This document shows positions 3 through 9,468 of a stretch of DNA of 64,000 nucleotides, piece after piece. Every line of letters begins with the position of its first letter. Positions within the stretch are counted from its first letter, which is position 1. The stretch is taken from assembly GCF_000585375.1 (NCBI RefSeq), contig NZ_KK073874.1, positions 8,157,913 to 8,221,912 on the forward strand, read 5' to 3'. Source of the stretch: Cryptosporangium arvum DSM 44712 (lineage in GTDB: Bacteria; Actinomycetota; Actinomycetes; Mycobacteriales; Cryptosporangiaceae). The notes under the pieces are model-generated. The model worked only from the letters and a program-made list of their open reading frames with translations, was not told where the DNA came from and made no database searches. A program made the translations under genes and the position numbers.

Positions 3-1370
3 CGCACCGACGTGTACGCACTCGGCTGCGTGGTCTACCAGGCGCTGACCGGCAAGGTGCCGTTCATCCGCGACGACGACGCCGCGCTGCTCTGGGCGCA
101 CCTGATGGAGATGCCGACGCCGGTCAGCTCCGTGCGTCCGGAGATCCCGGTCGAGGCCGACCAGGTGATCGCCACCGCGATGGCCAAGGGACCGGAGGGC
201 CGGTTCGCGTCCTGCGGCGAGTTCATCACCGCTCTCGGGGCGGCGTTCGGCGGCAAGCCGGTGAACCTGCCGACGGCCGCGAGCGGCACGACCGTGAGCC
301 CGAGCAGCGCGCCGCCCGCGCCGCCGACCCCGCACTCCCCCACCACGCCTCCGCCCGCGTCGGGGCCGCCGTCGTGGACGGCGCCGCCGGCCGCCGGCGC
401 GCACCCGCAGCAGCAGGGCACTCCGCTGCCGACCGCGCAGTGGACCGGCGGCGAGTACTCGCCGCAGGCCTACTCGCCGCAGAGCGGGCCGCCGGCCGGC
501 ACCTACCCGAACCAGTACTCGCCGACGCAGTTCCCGCCGGCCGCGTACCCGCACTCGGCACCGCCGCACTCAGCACCGCCGCACTCGGCACCGCCGAGTC
601 AAGGCCTGCCGTACCCGTACTCCGGGCCGCCGCACCCGGGTTCGAGCCCGCCGTACCAGTACTCCGGGCCGCCGCATCCCTTCTCCGGGCCGCCGCAGGG
701 CATCAGCGCGCCGCCGCACGTGGCGAGCGGACCGCCGGCCCGGCCGACGAACCCCGACGGCAAGCGCAAGCTGCTGATCGGCGGGCTCGCCGGCCTGCTG
801 GTGCTGGCGATCGCGCTCGTCGTCGTGCTCGTCGTGAAGCCCTTCCAGGAGGGCACGAAACACTTCACGGCGACGACGACCGTGCCGGTCTCGTTCGACT
901 ACCCGGAGAGCTGGCAGGCGCACGGCGAGGGCACGAACGTCGTGTTCTCCCCCCACGCCGACGAGGCGTCGACGCTGTTCACCACCACCGGCACGAGCGC
1001 CGGCTGGACGCAGCTCGAACGGGAGCTGCGCAGCGACCCGGACTCCGTCGTCGGTGTCTACACATTCTTCTCCACCACCGCCTTCCCCAACACGGCCGAC
1101 GAACGTCGGGCGTCGCTCATCGCGCAGATGCCGACCACCCTCTCGCTGGATCCGCAGGAGAGCACGGTCATCGACAGCCGCGATTCGACGCTGCACGACG
1201 GGACGCTGCGCCAGGACGGCGGCGACGGTGAACTGCGGATCCGTTGTTTCGTCACCACCGACCCGACGTCGAACCAGACCGTCGTGCTCCTGTTCTTCTC
1301 GTCCGAGGGCGCGTGGAGCAAGAACGAGGGCAAGTTCAAGGCACTGCTCGACTCGGTGAAGTTCAGCTAA
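3..1370 (+). CDS. Ser/Thr protein kinase, C-terminal part (PknB-like, membrane-anchored)
   Basis: The gene is cut by the window's left edge: the frame is open to base 3 with no start. The first ~80 codons are the end of a Hanks-type kinase C-lobe, beginning in the RTDVYALGC segment (subdomain IX) and including the conserved Arg near GPEGRF. About 170 residues of Pro/Ser/Gly/Tyr-rich linker follow, with repeats such as SGPPH and PPHSA. One hydrophobic helix (bases ~770-835) then leads to an extracytoplasmic domain of ~175 residues. The layout is that of a bacterial transmembrane receptor kinase. Catalytic residues lie outside the window. It stops 18 bases before a Crp/Fnr gene on the same strand, so co-transcription is likely. 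The ligand of the outer domain is unknown. Confidence 0.9.
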   Translation, partial: RTDVYALGCVVYQALTGKVPFIRDDDAALLWAHLMEMPTPVSSVRPEIPVEADQVIATAMAKGPEGRFASCGEFITALGAAFGGKPVNLPTAASGTTVSPSSAPPAPPTPHSPTTPPPASGPPSWTAPPAAGAHPQQQGTPLPTAQWTGGEYSPQAYSPQSGPPAGTYPNQYSPTQFPPAAYPHSAPPHSAPPHSAPPSQGLPYPYSGPPHPGSSPPYQYSGPPHPFSGPPQGISAPPHVASGPPARPTNPDGKRKLLIGGLAGLLVLAIALVVVLVVKPFQEGTKHFTATTTVPVSFDYPESWQAHGEGTNVVFSPHADEASTLFTTTGTSAGWTQLERELRSDPDSVVGVYTFFSTTAFPNTADERRASLIAQMPTTLSLDPQESTVIDSRDSTLHDGTLRQDGGDGELRIRCFVTTDPTSNQTVVLLFFSSEGAWSKNEGKFKALLDSVKFS

Positions 1371-1388
1371 GAGGGGGAATCTCGCTCG

Positions 1389-2054
1389 ATGGAGTGGTCA
1401 GCGCTGTCCATGATCGCGGACAAGGAGCGACGTGAGCTGCTCGCGGTTGCCCGGCGCCGTAAGTTCCGCCGGAACGAAGTTCTGTTCCACGAGGGGGATC
1501 CGGCCAACTCACTGCACCTGATCGAGTCCGGTCACGTCAGCGTGCGGGTCACCACCGGGGCCGGCGACAGCGTGACGCTGGCCGTGCTCGGCCCGGGCGA
1601 GACCGTCGGCGAGCTGGCATTACTGGAGGCCGATCCGTCCAAGGCGGTGCGGTCGGCGACCGTCACCGCGCTGGAGGGCTGCGAGACGCTGTCGCTGCAG
1701 CGCGACCGGTTCGACGCGTTGCGTCAGCAGTACCCCCGTGTCGACCGGGTGCTGGCCGAGCTGCTGGCGAACGAGGTGCGCCGGCTCAACGGCCGGTTGC
1801 TGGAGTTCCTCTACCTGCCGGCCGACAAGCGGGTGCTCCGGCGGCTGGCGACGCTGGCCCGCGCGTACGACGACGGGGTCACCCGCCCGGTCGCGGTACC
1901 GCTGACCCAGGAAGTGATCGCGAGCCTGGCCGGAACTTCGCGTCCCACCACGAACCAGGCATTGCGGGCGGTGGAAGAGGCCGGAATCATCGCGATCGGA
2001 CGGTCCAAGATCGAAATCCTCAACCCGGCGGCCCTGGTCCGTAAGGCGCGTTGA
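1389..2054 (+). CDS. Crp/Fnr-family cyclic-nucleotide-responsive transcription regulator
   Basis: This 221-residue protein has an N-terminal cNMP-binding beta-roll followed by a C-terminal Crp-type winged helix (ALAGTSRP-like recognition region, about residues 165-215). The phosphate-binding cassette looks canonical, with Glu in VGELALL (E75) and Arg in VRSATV (R88), so cAMP binding is plausible. A GAGGGGGA ribosome site lies ~10 bases before the ATG. Three genes downstream on the same strand include a nucleotide cyclase, which could make its ligand. Target promoters are not identifiable from the window. Confidence 0.93.
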   Translation: MEWSALSMIADKERRELLAVARRRKFRRNEVLFHEGDPANSLHLIESGHVSVRVTTGAGDSVTLAVLGPGETVGELALLEADPSKAVRSATVTALEGCETLSLQRDRFDALRQQYPRVDRVLAELLANEVRRLNGRLLEFLYLPADKRVLRRLATLARAYDDGVTRPVAVPLTQEVIASLAGTSRPTTNQALRAVEEAGIIAIGRSKIEILNPAALVRKAR

Positions 2055-2176
2055 CCGAGTCACATCGGGCTCGAACAGCGATTACCGTCACGCGCGCTCT
2101 GGGTGACGGGGGCCACGAAGTCAGGCTTCCGTCAGTCCGGGTGGGCCGGGGAGCGGCGGGCGCCTACGCTACCTCC

Positions 2177-5100
2177 GTGCCACCCGTGCTCCGGTGCTCG
2201 AATTGCGGCGAGGAAAACAACCCGCCGCAAGCTCGGTTCTGCTTTTCCTGCGGAAACGCGATCAGTTCCGAGGACACCCGCGAACTCAGAAAGACGATCA
2301 CGGTCGTCTTCACCGACGTCGTCGGTTCCAGTGGGCTGGGCGAACGCCTGGACCCCGAGGTCCTGCGCCGCATGATGACCCGTTACTACGAGCACGCGAC
2401 CGCGATCCACGTGAAGCACGGCGGGCGGGTGCAGAAGTTCATCGGCGACGCGGTGATGGCCGTCTTCGGCCTGCCGAACTCCCGCGAGGACGACGCCCTG
2501 CGTGCGGTACGTGCCGCGGCGGAGCTGCACGCGTCGCTCGAAGCCCTCAACGAGACGCTCATGCGTGACTGGGGCGTCACGCTGAACCTGCGTACCGGCG
2601 TCAACACCGGCGAGGTGGTCATCGGGCGGGCGTTCCTCGGGCAGGACATCACGCTCGGCGACGTCGTGAACGTCGCCGCGCGGCTGGAGACCGCCGCCGA
2701 ACCCGGCACCGTCCTGATCGGCGACTCGACCTACCGCCTCTCCCGCGACGCGGTCACCGCCACGATGCTCCCGCCGATGACCGTCCGGGGCCGCGGTGTC
2801 CCGGTCGACGCGTGGCGGTTGCTCGCGGTAAAGCCCGGCGCGTCCGGTCACGCCCGGCGTCTGGACGCGCCGATCGTCGGACGCACCCGCGAGCTCGAGG
2901 AGCTGCGCCGGCTCTTCGACCGCACGGTCGCCGAGCGCTCCGTACGCACGGTCACCGTGCTGGGCACCGGCGGTGCGGGCAAGTCCCGGCTGCTGCACGA
3001 ACTGCTGGCCCAGGTCGGCGACCGGGCGACCGTGCTGCGCGGCGAATGCCTGAGTTACGGCGACGGGTTGACGTACCTGCCGCTGGCCGAGGTCGTGCGC
3101 CAGGCCGCCGACGCGGGGCCGGAGGAGGACACCGCCGCCATCCGCCGCAAGCTCGCCTCGCTGCTGCCCGGTGACGACCGCACGATCGACGTGCTGGCCG
3201 GGCTGCTGGGCGAGCCGACCGCACCGTCCACCTCCACGACGCTGTCGACGACGAACAGCGTCGAGAACCTCCCGCAGGCGATGTACCGGTTCGCCGCGAC
3301 GCTGGCCGCGCGGCGTCCGCTGGTGCTGGTGCTCGACGACCTGCACTGGGCCGAGCCGGCCCTGCTCGACCTCATCGACCAGCTCGCCGAGTGGCTGCGC
3401 GACAGCCCGGTGCTGATCTGCTGTCTCTCCCGGCCCGAGCTGCTGGAGGACCGGCCCGAGTGGGCCCGGGGCGGTAGCCGCACGTCGACGCTGATGCTGG
3501 AACCGCTGGCCGCCGACGAGTCGGCCGCGCTGCTGGACAACCTGCTCGACGGCGCCGAGGGAGCCGAGGAGGTCCGCTCGCGGATCGTGGCGGCGGCCGA
3601 GGGCAACCCGCTCTACATCGAGGAACTCGTCGGCATGCTGCTCGACGACGGTTTACTCGACCGGGTCGACGGCCGGTGGGTGCTCACCGCCGAGATCAAC
3701 CGGCTGGCGGTGCCGCCGAGCGTCGGGGCGCTGCTCGCCGCGCGTCTGGACGGTCTGCCGAAGGGCGAACGGGGCGTGCTCGAGCGCGCGAGCGTCATCG
3801 GCGACGTGTTCTACCGCAACGGCGTCGTCGCGCTCACCCCGCCCGAACAGCGTCGGGACGTGACCGGCGCGCTGCTCTCGCTGGTCCGCAAGGAGCTGCT
3901 CCGGCCGGAGGGGTCGGTGCTGCACGGGGAGAGCGCGCTGCGCTTCCGTCACCAGCTCGTCCGGGACGCCGCCTACAACTCCCTCTCCAAGCGCGAACGC
4001 GCGCACCTGCACGAGGTCGCCGGCCGCTGGATGGAGGAGACGCTCGCCGGACGGTTGCCCGAGCTCGAGGAGATCGTCGGGTACCACCTGGAGCAGGCGG
4101 CGCGGTTCCGCACCGGTATCGGCCCGGCCGATCCCGAGACACAGGAGCTGTCCCGGCGGGCCGCCGAGCACCTGGGGCGCGCCGGGCGCCGGGCGTTCGC
4201 GCGACGCGACATGCCGGCCGCGATCACGCTGCTGGGCCGGGCCACGTCGCTGCTCCCGGCCGAACACGCCGCCCGGGTCGGGCTGCTGCCGCAGTTCGCG
4301 GCCGCGTTGGTGGAGCGGGGTGAGTTCAACCGGGCGTCGGACCTGTTGACGGAGGCCACGGGGGCGGCCATCCGCACCGGCGACGCCGAGCTGCGCGCGG
4401 AGGCCGACAAGGTCCGCTCGGTGCTCCGGCTGCTGTCCGGCCGGTCGGCCGACGACCAGACCGGGCTGACGACGACCGGCGGCCGGCCACCGATCCCCGA
4501 TCTCTCGACGACCGTCGAACTCGGTTCCGGCGGTGGTTCGGTCGCCGCGAACTGGACGCTGTTGCGCGACGTCCGATGGCTGCCGAAAGCGATGAACAGC
4601 TCGTCGCGCGGCGCCGCCGACACCGAGCCCGGGAGCGGCTCGGCCGACGGCGGCGACGGACGGCGGCAGGCCATCGCGAAGAGCTTCTCGCTGGCCGCGG
4701 TGCTGGGCGACGCCCCGGTCGAGGCGACGATCACGCAGTACCGGCGGGAGCTGTCCAGCGTCACCACCAACCGCACCGCGGAGGTGCGGCTGCGCGGCGC
4801 GCTGGCCGGTCTGAGCGCGATGGCCGGGCGGTTCGACGACGCCCGCGAGCACCTGGTGGCCGCGCAGGCCATCACCGACCGGCTCGGTCTCCGCGTGCGG
4901 GCGGTGTCGCTCGCGTACCTCGGCGGGTACGTCGAGATGCTTGCCGGTGACCCGTCGAGCGCGGCCGAGAAGTTGCACGCCGGGGCCGAAGAATGTGCCC
5001 AAATGGGCGAACGGTACGTCCTTTCGAACCTGCTCGCGCTGCTCGCGCAGGCTCGGTACGCCCAGGGTGTGCTGGCCGAATCGGCCCAGCTGGCCAGCGA

Positions 5101-5419
5101 CGCCGAGCGCGCGGCGCCGTCCGACGAGGTCGTCGCGCAGGCCACCGCGCGGTCCGCGCGGGGCAAGGCGCTGGCCCGTCTGGGCCGGGTGGAGCAGGCG
5201 GTGACCGCGGCACGCTCGGCGGTCGATACGGTGCGCGGAACGGGTTTGTCCACCGTGGAGGCCGACGCCCTGCTCGACCTCGCGGAGGTGTTGGAAACTC
5301 TGAGAGACCCGATCGGCGCCCGGAACGCGGCGGCCGACGCACTGGAACGGTACGAAGGAAAGGGCAACGTGATCTCCGCAGCCCGCGCACGGTCGGTCGT
5401 CCTGCGGCTGGGTGGGTGA
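2177..5419 (+). CDS. Class III adenylate/guanylate cyclase with zinc ribbon, AAA ATPase and TPR region
   Basis: The GTG at 2177 is chosen because the recognisable protein begins with a double CxxC zinc ribbon (CSNCGEEN...CFSCG) a few residues later. The frame is open upstream to a TTG at 2051 that overlaps the Crp stop. The cyclase domain (about residues 40-220) has both metal Asp residues (FTDVVGSS and FIGDAVMAVF), the Lys in VQKFIGD typical of adenine specificity, and the Asn/Arg pair in NVAARLE, so it looks active. Then come an AAA/STAND-type ATPase with Walker A (GTGGAGKS, ~264) and Walker B (VLVLDDLHW, ~385), and a helical TPR-like C-terminus. The likely reaction is ATP to cAMP, gated by the ATPase module. 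It overlaps the next gene by one base. Confidence 0.9.
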   Translation: MPPVLRCSNCGEENNPPQARFCFSCGNAISSEDTRELRKTITVVFTDVVGSSGLGERLDPEVLRRMMTRYYEHATAIHVKHGGRVQKFIGDAVMAVFGLPNSREDDALRAVRAAAELHASLEALNETLMRDWGVTLNLRTGVNTGEVVIGRAFLGQDITLGDVVNVAARLETAAEPGTVLIGDSTYRLSRDAVTATMLPPMTVRGRGVPVDAWRLLAVKPGASGHARRLDAPIVGRTRELEELRRLFDRTVAERSVRTVTVLGTGGAGKSRLLHELLAQVGDRATVLRGECLSYGDGLTYLPLAEVVRQAADAGPEEDTAAIRRKLASLLPGDDRTIDVLAGLLGEPTAPSTSTTLSTTNSVENLPQAMYRFAATLAARRPLVLVLDDLHWAEPALLDLIDQLAEWLRDSPVLICCLSRPELLEDRPEWARGGSRTSTLMLEPLAADESAALLDNLLDGAEGAEEVRSRIVAAAEGNPLYIEELVGMLLDDGLLDRVDGRWVLTAEINRLAVPPSVGALLAARLDGLPKGERGVLERASVIGDVFYRNGVVALTPPEQRRDVTGALLSLVRKELLRPEGSVLHGESALRFRHQLVRDAAYNSLSKRERAHLHEVAGRWMEETLAGRLPELEEIVGYHLEQAARFRTGIGPADPETQELSRRAAEHLGRAGRRAFARRDMPAAITLLGRATSLLPAEHAARVGLLPQFAAALVERGEFNRASDLLTEATGAAIRTGDAELRAEADKVRSVLRLLSGRSADDQTGLTTTGGRPPIPDLSTTVELGSGGGSVAANWTLLRDVRWLPKAMNSSSRGAADTEPGSGSADGGDGRRQAIAKSFSLAAVLGDAPVEATITQYRRELSSVTTNRTAEVRLRGALAGLSAMAGRFDDAREHLVAAQAITDRLGLRVRAVSLAYLGGYVEMLAGDPSSAAEKLHAGAEECAQMGERYVLSNLLALLAQARYAQGVLAESAQLASDAERAAPSDEVVAQATARSARGKALARLGRVEQAVTAARSAVDTVRGTGLSTVEADALLDLAEVLETLRDPIGARNAAADALERYEGKGNVISAARARSVVLRLGG

Positions 5420-8400
5420 TGATGGCCCAGCTCGTCGAGGTCCGGGAAGCCGGACTCGAGCCGCGGACGGCGGTGATCGACGGCGTGGTCGAGGTGGGTC
5501 GGGACGCCGCGGGCATCCTGCTCTCCGACCCGGAGACCTCCCGCCGGCACGCCGCGCTCACCAGCGTCGAAGACTTCCTGACGGTTCGTGACCTGGGGAG
5601 TACCAACGGCACGACGGTGAACGGGGCCGCGATCCAGGCCGAGACGCTGCTCAACCCCGGGGACACGGTGGGGATGGGCGATGTCCGCATCCTGGTGATC
5701 GGTCCGCTGACCGACGCGCCCACCGACGGTCTTCCGGCCGCGCCGGCGGTGTCACCCGGGCCTGCACCGAGCGCTCCTGCACCGGGCGCTCTTGCACCGG
5801 GCGCGCCGGATGCGGCGCCTGGTGGTGCGGGGGGTGCTTGGGCGGGGAGTGCGTCGCCGCCTGGTTCGAGGTTGCCTGCCGATGCGTCGCCTGGGCCGGA
5901 CCCGGGAGCTCAGGGGGCTCCGGGGGTGGCGGGGCGTGCGCAGGTGCCGGTGCCGCCGTCGGCGGTGGGATCGGCCGCGGTGGGTTCCGCGCAGCCTCCG
6001 CAGCCCGGCCCGCCGGCTGTGGGGTCGGCGCAGGTGGGGTCGGCACAGGTGGGGTCGGCTCCGGTTGGACACGCTCCGGTTGCTCCGCCGCCCGGGTCCC
6101 AACAGCCGGGCGCTCAACCCGGGTTCCAGCATCCCGGGATCCAGTCTCCGGGTGGGCAGCCGCCGGGGGCTCAGGCTCCGGGCGGGCGAGCTCCTGGCGT
6201 GCAAGCTCCCGGCGGGCCAGGTCCCGGCGGGCCAGGTCCCGGCGGGCAGCAGCCCGGCAGGCAGGCTCCCGGCAGGCAGGCTCCAGGCGGGCAGGCTCCA
6301 GGCGGGCAGGCTCCAGGCGGGCAGGCTCCAGGCGGGCAGGCTCCAGGCGGGCAGCAGGCCGGCGCGCAACCGGGGATGCATCCGGCCGGGCCGTCACCCG
6401 CGGTGGGGTCCGCGCGGCCGGTACCCGCGGGCGCCCCGGCACCCGGCGCCGCCCCCGCCGCCTGGCGCGCCGCCGCGACACCGGGCGTCGCACCCGCGGG
6501 CGTTCCCGGCGGTACGCGGTTCGATGCCGAGCGCTCCGCCTCGGCCGAGGGCCGGGCCTTCCAGACCGGCCAGCCCCTCCTCCCCCTGCGCCCGGCGCTC
6601 GAAGAACTCGTCGCCAAGGAGACCGACGCCGCGGTCCTGCGCTACCGCCCCGGCAGCGCCGGCGAGGCCGCGGCGAACGGCTACGCCACCGCGGTGAAGC
6701 GGGCACGTAAACGCCTGGCGGGCCTGGGCTCCGAGCCCTGGGGCGTCAAACCCCAGATCTGCCTCGTCGACCCCTTCCCCGACCCCGACGACCCGGCGAA
6801 CATCCTCACCTCCGGCACGGTCGTCGACCCCGTCCGCGGCGAGATCTTCGTCGTCGTCACCGCCGAGGCACCTCCGGAGCCCCCGGAACGCCCGCTCGCG
6901 CTCTTCTTCGGCGCCGCACTGCCCGCGGCGCGTGACGTCGAGCTGCTGATCGAGGGTTACGGCCTGCACCTGTGCGGAGTGCCCTCCGCCGACTCCTACC
7001 TCGCCGACGTCGACGAGGAACGGGGCCTCCCGCCGCTGGTGCGCGCCGAGGGTGAGCTCCGGACGCTGATGGCGTTGTCCTTCGTCCGATTCCTCCTGGA
7101 ACGGGGCAGCGAAGCCGATCTGTGGAAGGTCTTCACGACCGCCCGGCCCGGCGCAGCCGACCTCACCGTGCAGGAGATCTACGGTGTCGGGCTCTCCGCG
7201 CTCGAGGAGCAGTGGCTCCGTTCGCTCGAGGTCGACGAGGAGCCGGTCCGGATCACCGCGTTCCTGCGGCTGGCCGGCCGGTACCTCCGCCCGCACGTCC
7301 GGCGCGAGATCGAAATCGCGATCTACCTGCTGATGGAGCTCGGCTTCGTCGCGGTGTTCCCGTTCGCGTTCACGAGCTTGATCAACGGCCTCACCAACGG
7401 CACCGCCGATCTCCAGTTCATCCTGCAGCTCGTCGGGCTGCTCGCCGGCACGTTCGCGATCAGCCTCGTGGCCGAGCTGCGCCGCAACTACGTCTCGGCG
7501 TTCGTCAGCCAATCGATCGTCCGTGCGCTCCGGACCCAGATGTTCAGCGGCCTGCAACGGCTGACGGCACGCTGGTACTCCGGCCGCAAACAGGGCGACA
7601 TCCTTTCCCGGCTGCTCTCCGACGTCGGCCAGTTGGAGCAGGGTCTTTCGAACACGATCCGGGACGGTCTGTTCCAGCTGCTCTCGCTGATCGTCGCGGC
7701 CGGAACGCTGCTGGTGCTGAACTGGATCCTCGGTCTGATCGTCCTGGTCGGCGCACCGATCGTCGCGTTCATCTACCGACGCATGGACAAGCCGGCGCTC
7801 AAGCGCAGCAAGGCGGTCCAGGAGAACGTCGGTGTGCTGGTCTCGGTCGCGGCCGAGAGCTACCAGGCGCACTCGGTCGTCCAGGCCTTCGGGCTGGAGG
7901 ACGAGGAGCGGTCACGCTTCCAGCGCGCCGCCGACCGGCTGTTCAAGCGTCAGCTGTCGCTGCAGCTGTTCAGCGGCCTGTTCGATCTGTCGGTCGACGC
8001 CGTGGTGACGACGCTGCGGCTGGTGACGCTCGTCGTCGGCGCGTACCTGGTGATCGGCGACCGGCTCTCGATCGGTGCGTTCGCCGCGGCGATCACGCTC
8101 GTCGGGCAGGTCGTCGGCCCGGTCACCGGCCTCACCGGCATCGGCCAGCAGATCCAGACGTCGACCGGTGCCCTGCAGCGGGTGAACGAGATCCTGCTCG
8201 CCAAGCCGGAGATCGACGACCACCCGCAGGCCACGCCCCTGCCGCCGCTGCGGCGCGAGATCCGGCTGGCCGACATCGCGTTCTCCTACGACGGCGACCG
8301 GCCCACGCTGCGCGGCATCGACGTCACGATCCGGGCCGGGTCGAAGGTCGCGTTCGTGGGCCCGACCGGCGCCGGCAAGTCGTCGACACTGCAGTTGCTC

Positions 8401-9468
8401 ATGCGGTTCTACGATCCCGACCGCGGCGCCGTGCTGTTCGACGGCCAGGACATCCGGGGCGCGACGATGGCCTCGCTGCGCGCGCAGCTCGGCGTCGTCT
8501 TCCAAGAGACGTTCTTGTTCGACGGGACGCTGCGCGACAACATCGGCCTCGGCCGGCTGGGCGCGTCGCCGGAGGACATCGAGAAGGCCGCGCGGGCAGC
8601 ACAGTTGCACGAGTACATCACCACGCTGCCCCGGGGGTACGACACTCCGGTCGGCGAGCGGGGCGTGCGGCTCTCCGGTGGTCAGCGCCAGCGGCTCGCG
8701 ATCGCGCGGGCGCTGCTCCGCGACCCTGCGGTGCTCCTGCTCGACGAGGCCACCTCGGCGCTCGACCCGCGCACCGAGCGGCTGGTCGCCGAGACGCTCG
8801 ACTCGGTCGCCAGCGGCCGGACGCTCATCGCGGTCACGCACCGGCTGACGTCGATCGTCGACTACGACCAGATCTACGTGCTGGAGAGCGGGCAGATCGT
8901 CGAGCAGGGCCGGCACGACGAGCTGGTCGCGGAGGGCGGCGTGTACGCCGACCTGTGGGCCGAGCAGAACGGTCTGCCGCGTCCGCAGGACGTGTCGGGC
9001 GAGGTGGTGGACCCGTCGCGCGCGCTGGCCCAGGTCCCGTTCTTCGCCCAGTTGGACGCCGGCGGGCTGGCCGTCGCGGCCGCGGCGCTCCGGGAGATCC
9101 GGCTGGAGCGCGGCGACACGCTTCCGGCGCGGACCGGGCAGTTGGCGGTCGTCGTCCGGGGCCAGGGCCGGGTCTTCGCGCCCGACCCCACCGGACGATC
9201 GGTGCAGGTGGCGCAACTCGGCCCCGGGCAGCTGTTCGGGCTGGGCGCGCTACTCGGCGACGACACCGCCGCCGAGCTGCGCGCGGACCGGCGGATGGAG
9301 CTCGGAATCCTCACCGACCAGGCGCTCTACCACCTGGCCACCCAGTTGCCTCCGGTCGCGGCCGCACTCAACGCGAGGCGGGCGGCGTCGGCGCCGCTGG
9401 GTGGTGAGCGGCTCTCGCAGATCCGGATGCTGCCGCCGGAACTCCGGCGGTTACCTCCAGCTTCGTGA
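5419..9468 (+). CDS. FHA domain - ABC exporter (TMD+NBD) - cNMP-binding-like fusion protein
   Basis: The start ATG overlaps the upstream TGA by one base. Order of parts in 1349 residues: FHA domain (~20-95, with SRRH and GSTNGT); Pro/Gly/Gln-rich linker (~100-365) with GGQAP repeats; a soluble domain I do not recognise (~368-600); six-helix exporter membrane domain (~628-935); nucleotide-binding domain with Walker A GPTGAGKS (~982), signature LSGGQ (~1085), Walker B LLLDEATSALD (~1105) and H-loop THR; and a C-terminal cNMP-like beta-roll (~1208-1330). The FHA domain should bind phosphothreonine, plausibly made by the kinase two genes upstream, much as Mycobacterium Rv1747 is controlled by PknF. 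The C-terminal roll has GLGALL where the ligand-binding Glu normally sits, so nucleotide binding is doubtful. The substrate is unknown. Confidence 0.92.
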   Translation: MMAQLVEVREAGLEPRTAVIDGVVEVGRDAAGILLSDPETSRRHAALTSVEDFLTVRDLGSTNGTTVNGAAIQAETLLNPGDTVGMGDVRILVIGPLTDAPTDGLPAAPAVSPGPAPSAPAPGALAPGAPDAAPGGAGGAWAGSASPPGSRLPADASPGPDPGAQGAPGVAGRAQVPVPPSAVGSAAVGSAQPPQPGPPAVGSAQVGSAQVGSAPVGHAPVAPPPGSQQPGAQPGFQHPGIQSPGGQPPGAQAPGGRAPGVQAPGGPGPGGPGPGGQQPGRQAPGRQAPGGQAPGGQAPGGQAPGGQAPGGQQAGAQPGMHPAGPSPAVGSARPVPAGAPAPGAAPAAWRAAATPGVAPAGVPGGTRFDAERSASAEGRAFQTGQPLLPLRPALEELVAKETDAAVLRYRPGSAGEAAANGYATAVKRARKRLAGLGSEPWGVKPQICLVDPFPDPDDPANILTSGTVVDPVRGEIFVVVTAEAPPEPPERPLALFFGAALPAARDVELLIEGYGLHLCGVPSADSYLADVDEERGLPPLVRAEGELRTLMALSFVRFLLERGSEADLWKVFTTARPGAADLTVQEIYGVGLSALEEQWLRSLEVDEEPVRITAFLRLAGRYLRPHVRREIEIAIYLLMELGFVAVFPFAFTSLINGLTNGTADLQFILQLVGLLAGTFAISLVAELRRNYVSAFVSQSIVRALRTQMFSGLQRLTARWYSGRKQGDILSRLLSDVGQLEQGLSNTIRDGLFQLLSLIVAAGTLLVLNWILGLIVLVGAPIVAFIYRRMDKPALKRSKAVQENVGVLVSVAAESYQAHSVVQAFGLEDEERSRFQRAADRLFKRQLSLQLFSGLFDLSVDAVVTTLRLVTLVVGAYLVIGDRLSIGAFAAAITLVGQVVGPVTGLTGIGQQIQTSTGALQRVNEILLAKPEIDDHPQATPLPPLRREIRLADIAFSYDGDRPTLRGIDVTIRAGSKVAFVGPTGAGKSSTLQLLMRFYDPDRGAVLFDGQDIRGATMASLRAQLGVVFQETFLFDGTLRDNIGLGRLGASPEDIEKAARAAQLHEYITTLPRGYDTPVGERGVRLSGGQRQRLAIARALLRDPAVLLLDEATSALDPRTERLVAETLDSVASGRTLIAVTHRLTSIVDYDQIYVLESGQIVEQGRHDELVAEGGVYADLWAEQNGLPRPQDVSGEVVDPSRALAQVPFFAQLDAGGLAVAAAALREIRLERGDTLPARTGQLAVVVRGQGRVFAPDPTGRSVQVAQLGPGQLFGLGALLGDDTAAELRADRRMELGILTDQALYHLATQLPPVAAALNARRAASAPLGGERLSQIRMLPPELRRLPPAS
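6286..6345 (+). repeat. 15-bp tandem repeat coding for GGQAP
   Basis: Four perfect consecutive copies of a 15-base unit (ggcgggcaggctcca) lie inside the FHA-ABC linker. Degenerate copies occur on both sides (GRQAP, GGPGP). They encode a flexible Gly/Gln/Pro spacer between the FHA domain and the rest of the protein. Confidence 0.9.

Follow-up and report, generated by a model that had tools for sequence, protein, structure and literature searches.

The window analysed here, a stretch of 64,000 nucleotides (positions 8157913–8221912 of the single-contig 9.2-Mb genome of Cryptosporangium arvum DSM 44712), opens with a cluster of genes in which a Ser/Thr kinase, a Crp/Fnr-family regulator, a class III nucleotide cyclase and an ATP-binding cassette (ABC) exporter with an FHA domain are encoded side by side. 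A preliminary description had read these as four same-strand genes separated by gaps of 18 bases or by overlaps. Pfam searches returned the expected domains in all four genes, and both the gap of 18 bp between the kinase and the crp gene and the overlap of the exporter with the cyclase gene were found as described. On the other hand, the overlap between the crp and the cyclase gene depends on a start codon that is probably wrong, the kinase gene is truncated by the start of the window, and the cluster has a fifth member. The DNA upstream of the window holds the rest of the kinase gene and, 28 bp upstream of that gene on the same strand, a gene with a trypsin-like domain. From 5′ to 3′ the cluster thus reads protease-like protein, kinase, Crp, cyclase, and exporter, all on the plus strand. 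The complete five-gene order is the same in all four congeneric genomes; across the four species the junctions measure 28–32 bp, 15–18 bp, and −1 to 5 bp, whereas the gap between crp and cyclase gene and the Pro-rich linker are freely variable.

The proteins of the cluster

The exporter gene (5419–9468, 1349 aa) starts at ATG 5419, which overlaps the stop codon of the cyclase gene, or alternatively at ATG 5422. Its product comprises, in this order, an FHA domain, a hypervariable Pro/Gly linker, a pseudo-metallopeptidase domain, a transmembrane domain (TMD), a nucleotide-binding domain (NBD), and a degenerate cyclic nucleotide (cNMP) binding tail. Pfam finds a single FHA stretch (5491–5679, E 9e-13), and the residues for binding of phosphothreonine (G-R, S-R-R-H, STNGT) are intact in the four congeners. 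The linker (5719–6600) is made up of Pro/Gly-rich tandem repeats such as GGQAPGGQ; here it spans ∼296 aa between the FHA and the pseudopeptidase matches, and the three congeners have linkers of ∼134, 224, and 346 aa. In the exporter core ABC_membrane (PF00664) precedes ABC_tran, and the best NCBIfam matches are MsbA models, below their cutoff.

The domain encoded at 6607–7260 is assigned to the gluzincin (peptidase MA-like) fold of clan MA on the basis of its VIA-align Z score, and the zinc motif HExxH is found in none of 14 exporter homologues. A Foldseek search of the PDB with this domain gave no match at E ≤ 0.001; low-probability structural neighbours, several toxin metalloprotease entries among them, were set aside as generic matches of the clan. 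The tail (9139–9336) is recognized by the Pfam cNMP-binding model with 28.6 bits at a cutoff of 27.5. Both domains that had been ascribed to the exporter, FHA and cNMP-like, are thus matched by Pfam, but the latter is degenerate. Since the Glu of the binding cassette is absent from all 14 aligned homologues, the tail is unlikely to read cyclic AMP (cAMP), and we rejected this function. The alignment holds 14 of the 17 exporter homologues; L044 and L052 are truncated, and L050, although its reading frame is closed, gave no tail match.

The kinase is represented in the window by its C-terminal part (1–1370, fragment reading frame 3–1370); the full gene begins 607 bp before the window and encodes 658 aa with a Pkinase match of E 8e-49 on the full protein. 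The motifs VAVK, HRDVKPAN, DFG, and APE are present in the C. arvum protein, the one in which these residues were checked. As judged by eye, the end of the kinase domain is followed by a Pro-rich linker, one transmembrane segment, and an extracytoplasmic part. The gene upstream of it had been considered as a second kinase, which was rejected as the domain search identified a trypsin-like domain (E 4e-12), together with a C-terminal zinc-ribbon match slightly below the Pfam cutoff. Inspection by eye further suggests a signal peptide and a single transmembrane segment in its product. Because the catalytic His is replaced in all four congener copies and the Ser in two of them, as judged by eye, the protein is probably a pseudoprotease, and an active protease was dismissed as a candidate.

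The crp gene (1389–2054) encodes 221 aa with a cNMP_binding domain (E 4e-24) and an HTH_Crp_2 domain (E 3e-15). The phosphate/ribose cassette (GELALL...VRSAT) is intact in the four congeners, in agreement with the preliminary description. The cyclase (2177–5419, 1080 aa) has a zinc-ribbon-like start, the cyclase domain (2291–2797), an AAA_16 domain (2873–3418), and a TPR-like end with a weak TPR match. Catalysis by class III cyclases depends on two metal-binding Asp residues, a substrate-specifying Lys, and a transition-state Asn and Arg. All of these are kept in the four species (FTD, VQK, GDAV, VN, AAR), so the claim of an intact catalytic site holds for them; for the Asp/Thr partner of the Lys a QDIT is present, but the loop is shorter by one residue than that of CyaB, which makes the assignment ambiguous.

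Just 3′ of the cluster lies, on the same strand, a highly repetitive low-complexity reading frame of 1042 aa (10034–13162) with a transmembrane segment by eye. It is followed on the minus strand (13242–15524) by a reading frame whose product, as judged by eye, combines GGDEF and EAL domains and has transmembrane segments at its N terminus; it would be a second nucleotide-messenger gene near the cluster.

The region upstream of the cyclase gene

The cyclase reading frame is open from TTG 2051 onwards, yet the 126-nt extension from this codon to GTG 2177 has a G+C content at third codon positions (GC3) of 0.69 compared with a mean of 0.92, and none of 2130 overlapping coding windows has a GC3 as low. 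The TTG start is thus probably wrong, and we rejected it together with the overlap of crp and cyclase gene, in view also of the conserved, non-coding-like character of the upstream region. Translation probably starts at GTG 2177, which would leave 122 bp of non-coding DNA after the crp stop codon; the corresponding distance is 104–308 bp across the four species.

This region is strongly conserved. In the last 57 bp before GTG 2177, 45 columns are identical in all four species compared with 37% of fourfold-degenerate sites (P ∼1e-10 against the fourfold sites by a simple binomial, which ignores dependence between sites). The region holds a conserved non-coding block, GTCAGGnnnCCGTCAGTCCGGG (2120–2141), of which an exact copy is found once per genome in the four genomes, at this site; all other matches have two to three mismatches. 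With up to three mismatches the block is matched 8, 9, 12, and 15 times per genome, compared with 7, 7, 3, and 6 times for a reversed-pattern control. As a clear genome-wide regulon motif the block was accordingly rejected, though a weak excess over the control may exist.

The block contains an imperfect inverted repeat, CCG-N6-CGG (2129–2140), a candidate Crp site whose center is at −42.5 relative to GTG 2177, close to the −41.5 at which class II CRP sites are centered. In addition, a candidate −10 element, TACGCT (2165–2170), ends 6 bp before the GTG, which is the geometry of a leaderless transcript; it conforms to the TANNNT rule described for the −10 element of an actinobacterium with mapped transcription starts (PMC3898074). 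The single-copy conserved block and the −10-like hexamer at leaderless spacing suggest that the cyclase–exporter pair is probably served by its own leaderless internal promoter, at which the neighboring Crp possibly acts. The view of the cluster as a single tight four-gene unit is therefore not supported.

Occurrence in the genus and in distant relatives

A cyclase orthologue with 87% identity is present in the three other congeneric genomes. The one sister-genus genome searched, which is 93% complete, gave no exporter match and cyclase-domain matches of at most 35% identity, without an orthologue. The domain peculiar to the exporter was found in 4 of 200 sampled genomes of the order, all four of this genus, in 1 of 394 of the class (C. 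arvum itself), and in 4 of 396 of the phylum sample, namely C. arvum, one strong match, and two near the threshold. Within the genomes sampled the five-gene set is seen in this genus only. Conservation of the neighborhood beyond the strain, which the preliminary description had set as a test, is thus found, but among the congeners only.

The pairing of cyclase and Crp was followed separately. Four class III cyclases are encoded in the C. arvum genome, along with nine cNMP-binding domains. In the four congeners a Crp-family gene lies near each of the 16 class III cyclases, within 1.1 kb for 12 of them and never more than 6.9 kb away. In the rest of the order a Crp gene is near 9 of 40 cyclases, in four cases within 0.7 kb; for one cyclase-rich genus (g9) the count is 2 of 22, both Crp matches being weak and partial (E 2e-6 and 2e-7). 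These neighborhoods outside the genus cover 62 of 124 matches in 60 regions, a number of which are truncated where a contig ends: the 40 matches with the best E-values outside g9, 18 of 18 from genome G007, 4 of 19 from G034, and none of 18 from G043. Given all 16 cyclases of the genus compared with the lower counts elsewhere, the gene neighborhoods point to a local cyclase–Crp wiring that recurs in this genus, which extends the linkage noted for the present pair. A further locus of all four congeners (L087, L089, L092, L095) holds a class III cyclase together with two kinase matches and the gene of a GlxR-like Crp, all within ∼10 kb. A third cyclase, likewise in each congener (L085, L090, L093, L096), is followed by a Crp gene 57–132 bp on, as measured between domain matches, and has Gln at the position of the usual substrate-specifying Lys.

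A scan of named genomes identified 13 distant loci with the same linker/ABC protein, all metagenome-assembled and six of them titled Acidimicrobiia or Acidimicrobiales; L044 and the phylum match G557 are probably the same record and should not be counted twice. The DNA of L044, L049, and L052 stops in or at the exporter gene and that of L051 ∼0.5 kb past it; L042 and L053 start within the gene. An FHA match is present in 11 of the 13, that is, in every locus that reaches far enough upstream. A kinase is encoded in the surrounding DNA of seven; six of these kinases adjoin the exporter or are one gene off, and that of L045 is ∼5 kb off. Together with the constant cluster of the congeners this supports the proposed linkage of kinase and FHA exporter. 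On the same strand 3′ of the exporter, 8 of the 13 loci have a subtilase with Asp, His, and Ser intact by eye; in four of the other five the sequence stops at the exporter or soon after it, and in L047 a kinase gene occupies this place. Genes similar to the ECF-type sigma-factor gene of L043 occur in five loci (L043, L045, L046, L049, L050). In the DNA searched around the 13 exporters neither a cyclase nor a separate Crp gene was found, the Crp-profile matches being the tail of the exporter itself. As a kinase was found at 7 of these loci and cyclase and Crp at none, the exporter–kinase core appears to be separable from the Crp–cyclase cassette. This gene content suggests that kinase and exporter, often with a serine protease, form the older module, to which the Crp–cyclase pair was added, an order of events that we infer.

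Proposed working and comparison with known systems

We tentatively suggest, with somewhat less than even confidence, that in this genus a local Crp–cyclase cassette has come to control a phospho-regulated export module, which is composed of the membrane Ser/Thr kinase and the FHA–pseudopeptidase–ABC exporter. In this proposal we infer the promoter, the binding of Crp, cAMP as its ligand, the phosphorylation, and any exported substrate. The membrane kinase would sense an extracytoplasmic cue and would phosphorylate a Thr, probably in its own Pro-rich linker, in that of the exporter, or in another partner. The phosphothreonine would then be bound by the FHA domain of the exporter and would gate export, by analogy to PknF–Rv1747. 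The upstream unit of pseudoprotease, kinase, and Crp would yield Crp, which would act at the conserved block before the cyclase gene and set the expression of the cyclase–exporter unit, and the product of the cyclase would tune the activity of Crp as a feedback.

Several observations weigh against this proposal. The inverted repeat CCG-N6-CGG is a short motif rich in G and C, and the conserved block may represent an element of another kind. In Crp proteins the usual Glu and Arg of the recognition helix contact the DNA half-site; both are missing from the helix of the cluster Crp (SRPTTNQ, compared with SRETVNK in the comparison with the GlxR-like paralogue and the structure 3h3u, which we take to be the CRP of Mycobacterium tuberculosis), so that its half-site is not predictable. 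Two distant loci, L046 and L051, have flanking DNA without a kinase match. No Crp neighbor is present in any of the 20 regions chosen around close relatives of the cyclase in other genera, four of these regions being shorter than intended and some cut by contig ends. Finally, the Thr in the C-helix of CRP contacts the adenine of cAMP, and in the cluster Crp this position is occupied by Leu in all four species (RRLN(G), compared with RRTN in 3h3u and the GlxR-like paralogue). This weakens the earlier idea that the cyclase feeds this Crp. As T127I/L are frequent among the CRP* alleles of Escherichia coli described in PMC2743635, a Crp with a lowered need for cAMP is plausible, and the cluster Crp may need little or no cAMP. 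A separate GlxR-like Crp with RRTN is encoded in the same genome and could receive the cAMP of the cyclase instead.

The Leu and the GlxR-like Crp lead to an alternative that we regard as doubtful but worth weighing, namely that the cluster Crp works without a cyclic nucleotide, as a natural CRP*-like protein, or with another ligand, that the cyclase supplies the cell-wide GlxR-like Crp, and that shared expression explains the co-location. If no cyclic nucleotide were bound, however, the complete retention of the phosphate/ribose cassette (GE..L..RSA) would be unexpected, and the Crp genes near every cyclase of the genus argue against a mere supply of a distant regulator.

In a broader proposal, which in its entirety we consider rather unlikely, the FHA–pseudo-metallopeptidase–ABC–pseudo-cNMP proteins would be an undescribed exporter family and, with a kinase and often a subtilase, a conserved actinobacterial module whose task is probably the export or handling of peptides, controlled through phosphothreonine. 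The insertion of a Crp–cyclase cassette would then, in this genus, have added a Crp whose need for cAMP is small or altered and which drives a leaderless internal promoter of the cyclase–exporter pair, so that a single locus would couple the second messenger with phosphorylation and export.

It seems unlikely to us that the cluster merely reflects the usual grouping of signalling genes in large actinobacterial genomes, its two transcription units being independent and forming no functional circuit. This reading would agree with the probable internal promoter before the cyclase gene and with the cassette not having been found beside the exporter at any of the 13 loci outside the genus, but it leaves unexplained that the order is constant in four species, with tight junctions despite a variable linker and Crp–cyclase gap, and that the co-location of cyclase with Crp and of kinase with exporter are both recurrent. 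An anti-phage system, for example, of the Pycsar type with a cyclase and a cyclic-nucleotide effector, is highly improbable: the PADLOC models PycC and PycTIR do match the cyclase (E 1.4e-18) and Crp (E 1.9e-15), and the kinase is hit by models of the PD-T4-6 kinase (best E 2.4e-106), but these matches are limited to the shared cyclase, CNB, and kinase domains, the partner bears the DNA-binding domain of Crp rather than a TIR or transmembrane effector, and all four species keep the cluster in synteny rather than in a variable island.

If the export module is indeed controlled by the Crp–cyclase cassette, the cluster would offer a compact, testable case of one exporter on which Hanks-type phosphorylation converges with signalling by cyclic nucleotides. 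An exporter family with a dead-protease domain tied to kinases and subtilases would come to light, and its substrate could be sought. Moreover, the finding that every class III cyclase in the four genomes is near a Crp gene suggests locally wired cyclic-nucleotide circuits rather than one global pool.

In the open-access literature we found no description of the combination of kinase, Crp, cyclase, and FHA–ABC exporter, in line with the preliminary description, nor of a TOMM-linked or a subtilase/metallopeptidase variant; the parts are familiar, and the gene combination and the dead-protease domain of the exporter seem undescribed. The gluzincin metallopeptidases (M30 lugdulysin, collagenases, M1) differ from the C. 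arvum domain, which lacks HExxH and is embedded in an ABC exporter. Pycsar systems share a cyclase and a cNMP-binding protein with the cluster, but the partner in C. arvum has HTH_Crp_2 and no TIR or transmembrane effector. CRP or GlxR with a class III cyclase are likewise a cyclic-nucleotide regulator and enzyme with an intact cassette; the C. arvum pair, however, is clustered with exporter and kinase, and its Crp has Leu for the adenine-contacting Thr and a different recognition helix. In the TOMM kinase/cyclase fusion (TIGR03903) kinase, class III cyclase, and AAA region are parts of one unit. The C. arvum kinase matches positions 4–236 of this model and the cyclase positions 278–892, but with 132.7 and 245.2 bits compared with a cutoff of 705.75, and in C. 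arvum the genes are separate and Crp and exporter are added.

In outline the system resembles PknF–Rv1747 of M. tuberculosis, where a Ser/Thr kinase gene lies beside the gene of an FHA-bearing ABC exporter. According to the accounts in PMC3908365 and PMC5549992, Rv1747 is a half-transporter of the G subfamily with two FHA domains; PMC3908365 further describes it as an in vitro substrate of the kinase, with its FHA domains being needed for the interaction. The C. arvum exporter in contrast has one FHA domain and an MsbA-like core with the TMD before the NBD, and on these grounds its sequence indicates that it is not a member of the Rv1747 family. In addition, the C. arvum system comprises the pseudo-metallopeptidase domain, the cNMP-like tail, Crp, and the cyclase, and in all four species of the genus the genes of kinase and exporter are separated by those of Crp and cyclase.

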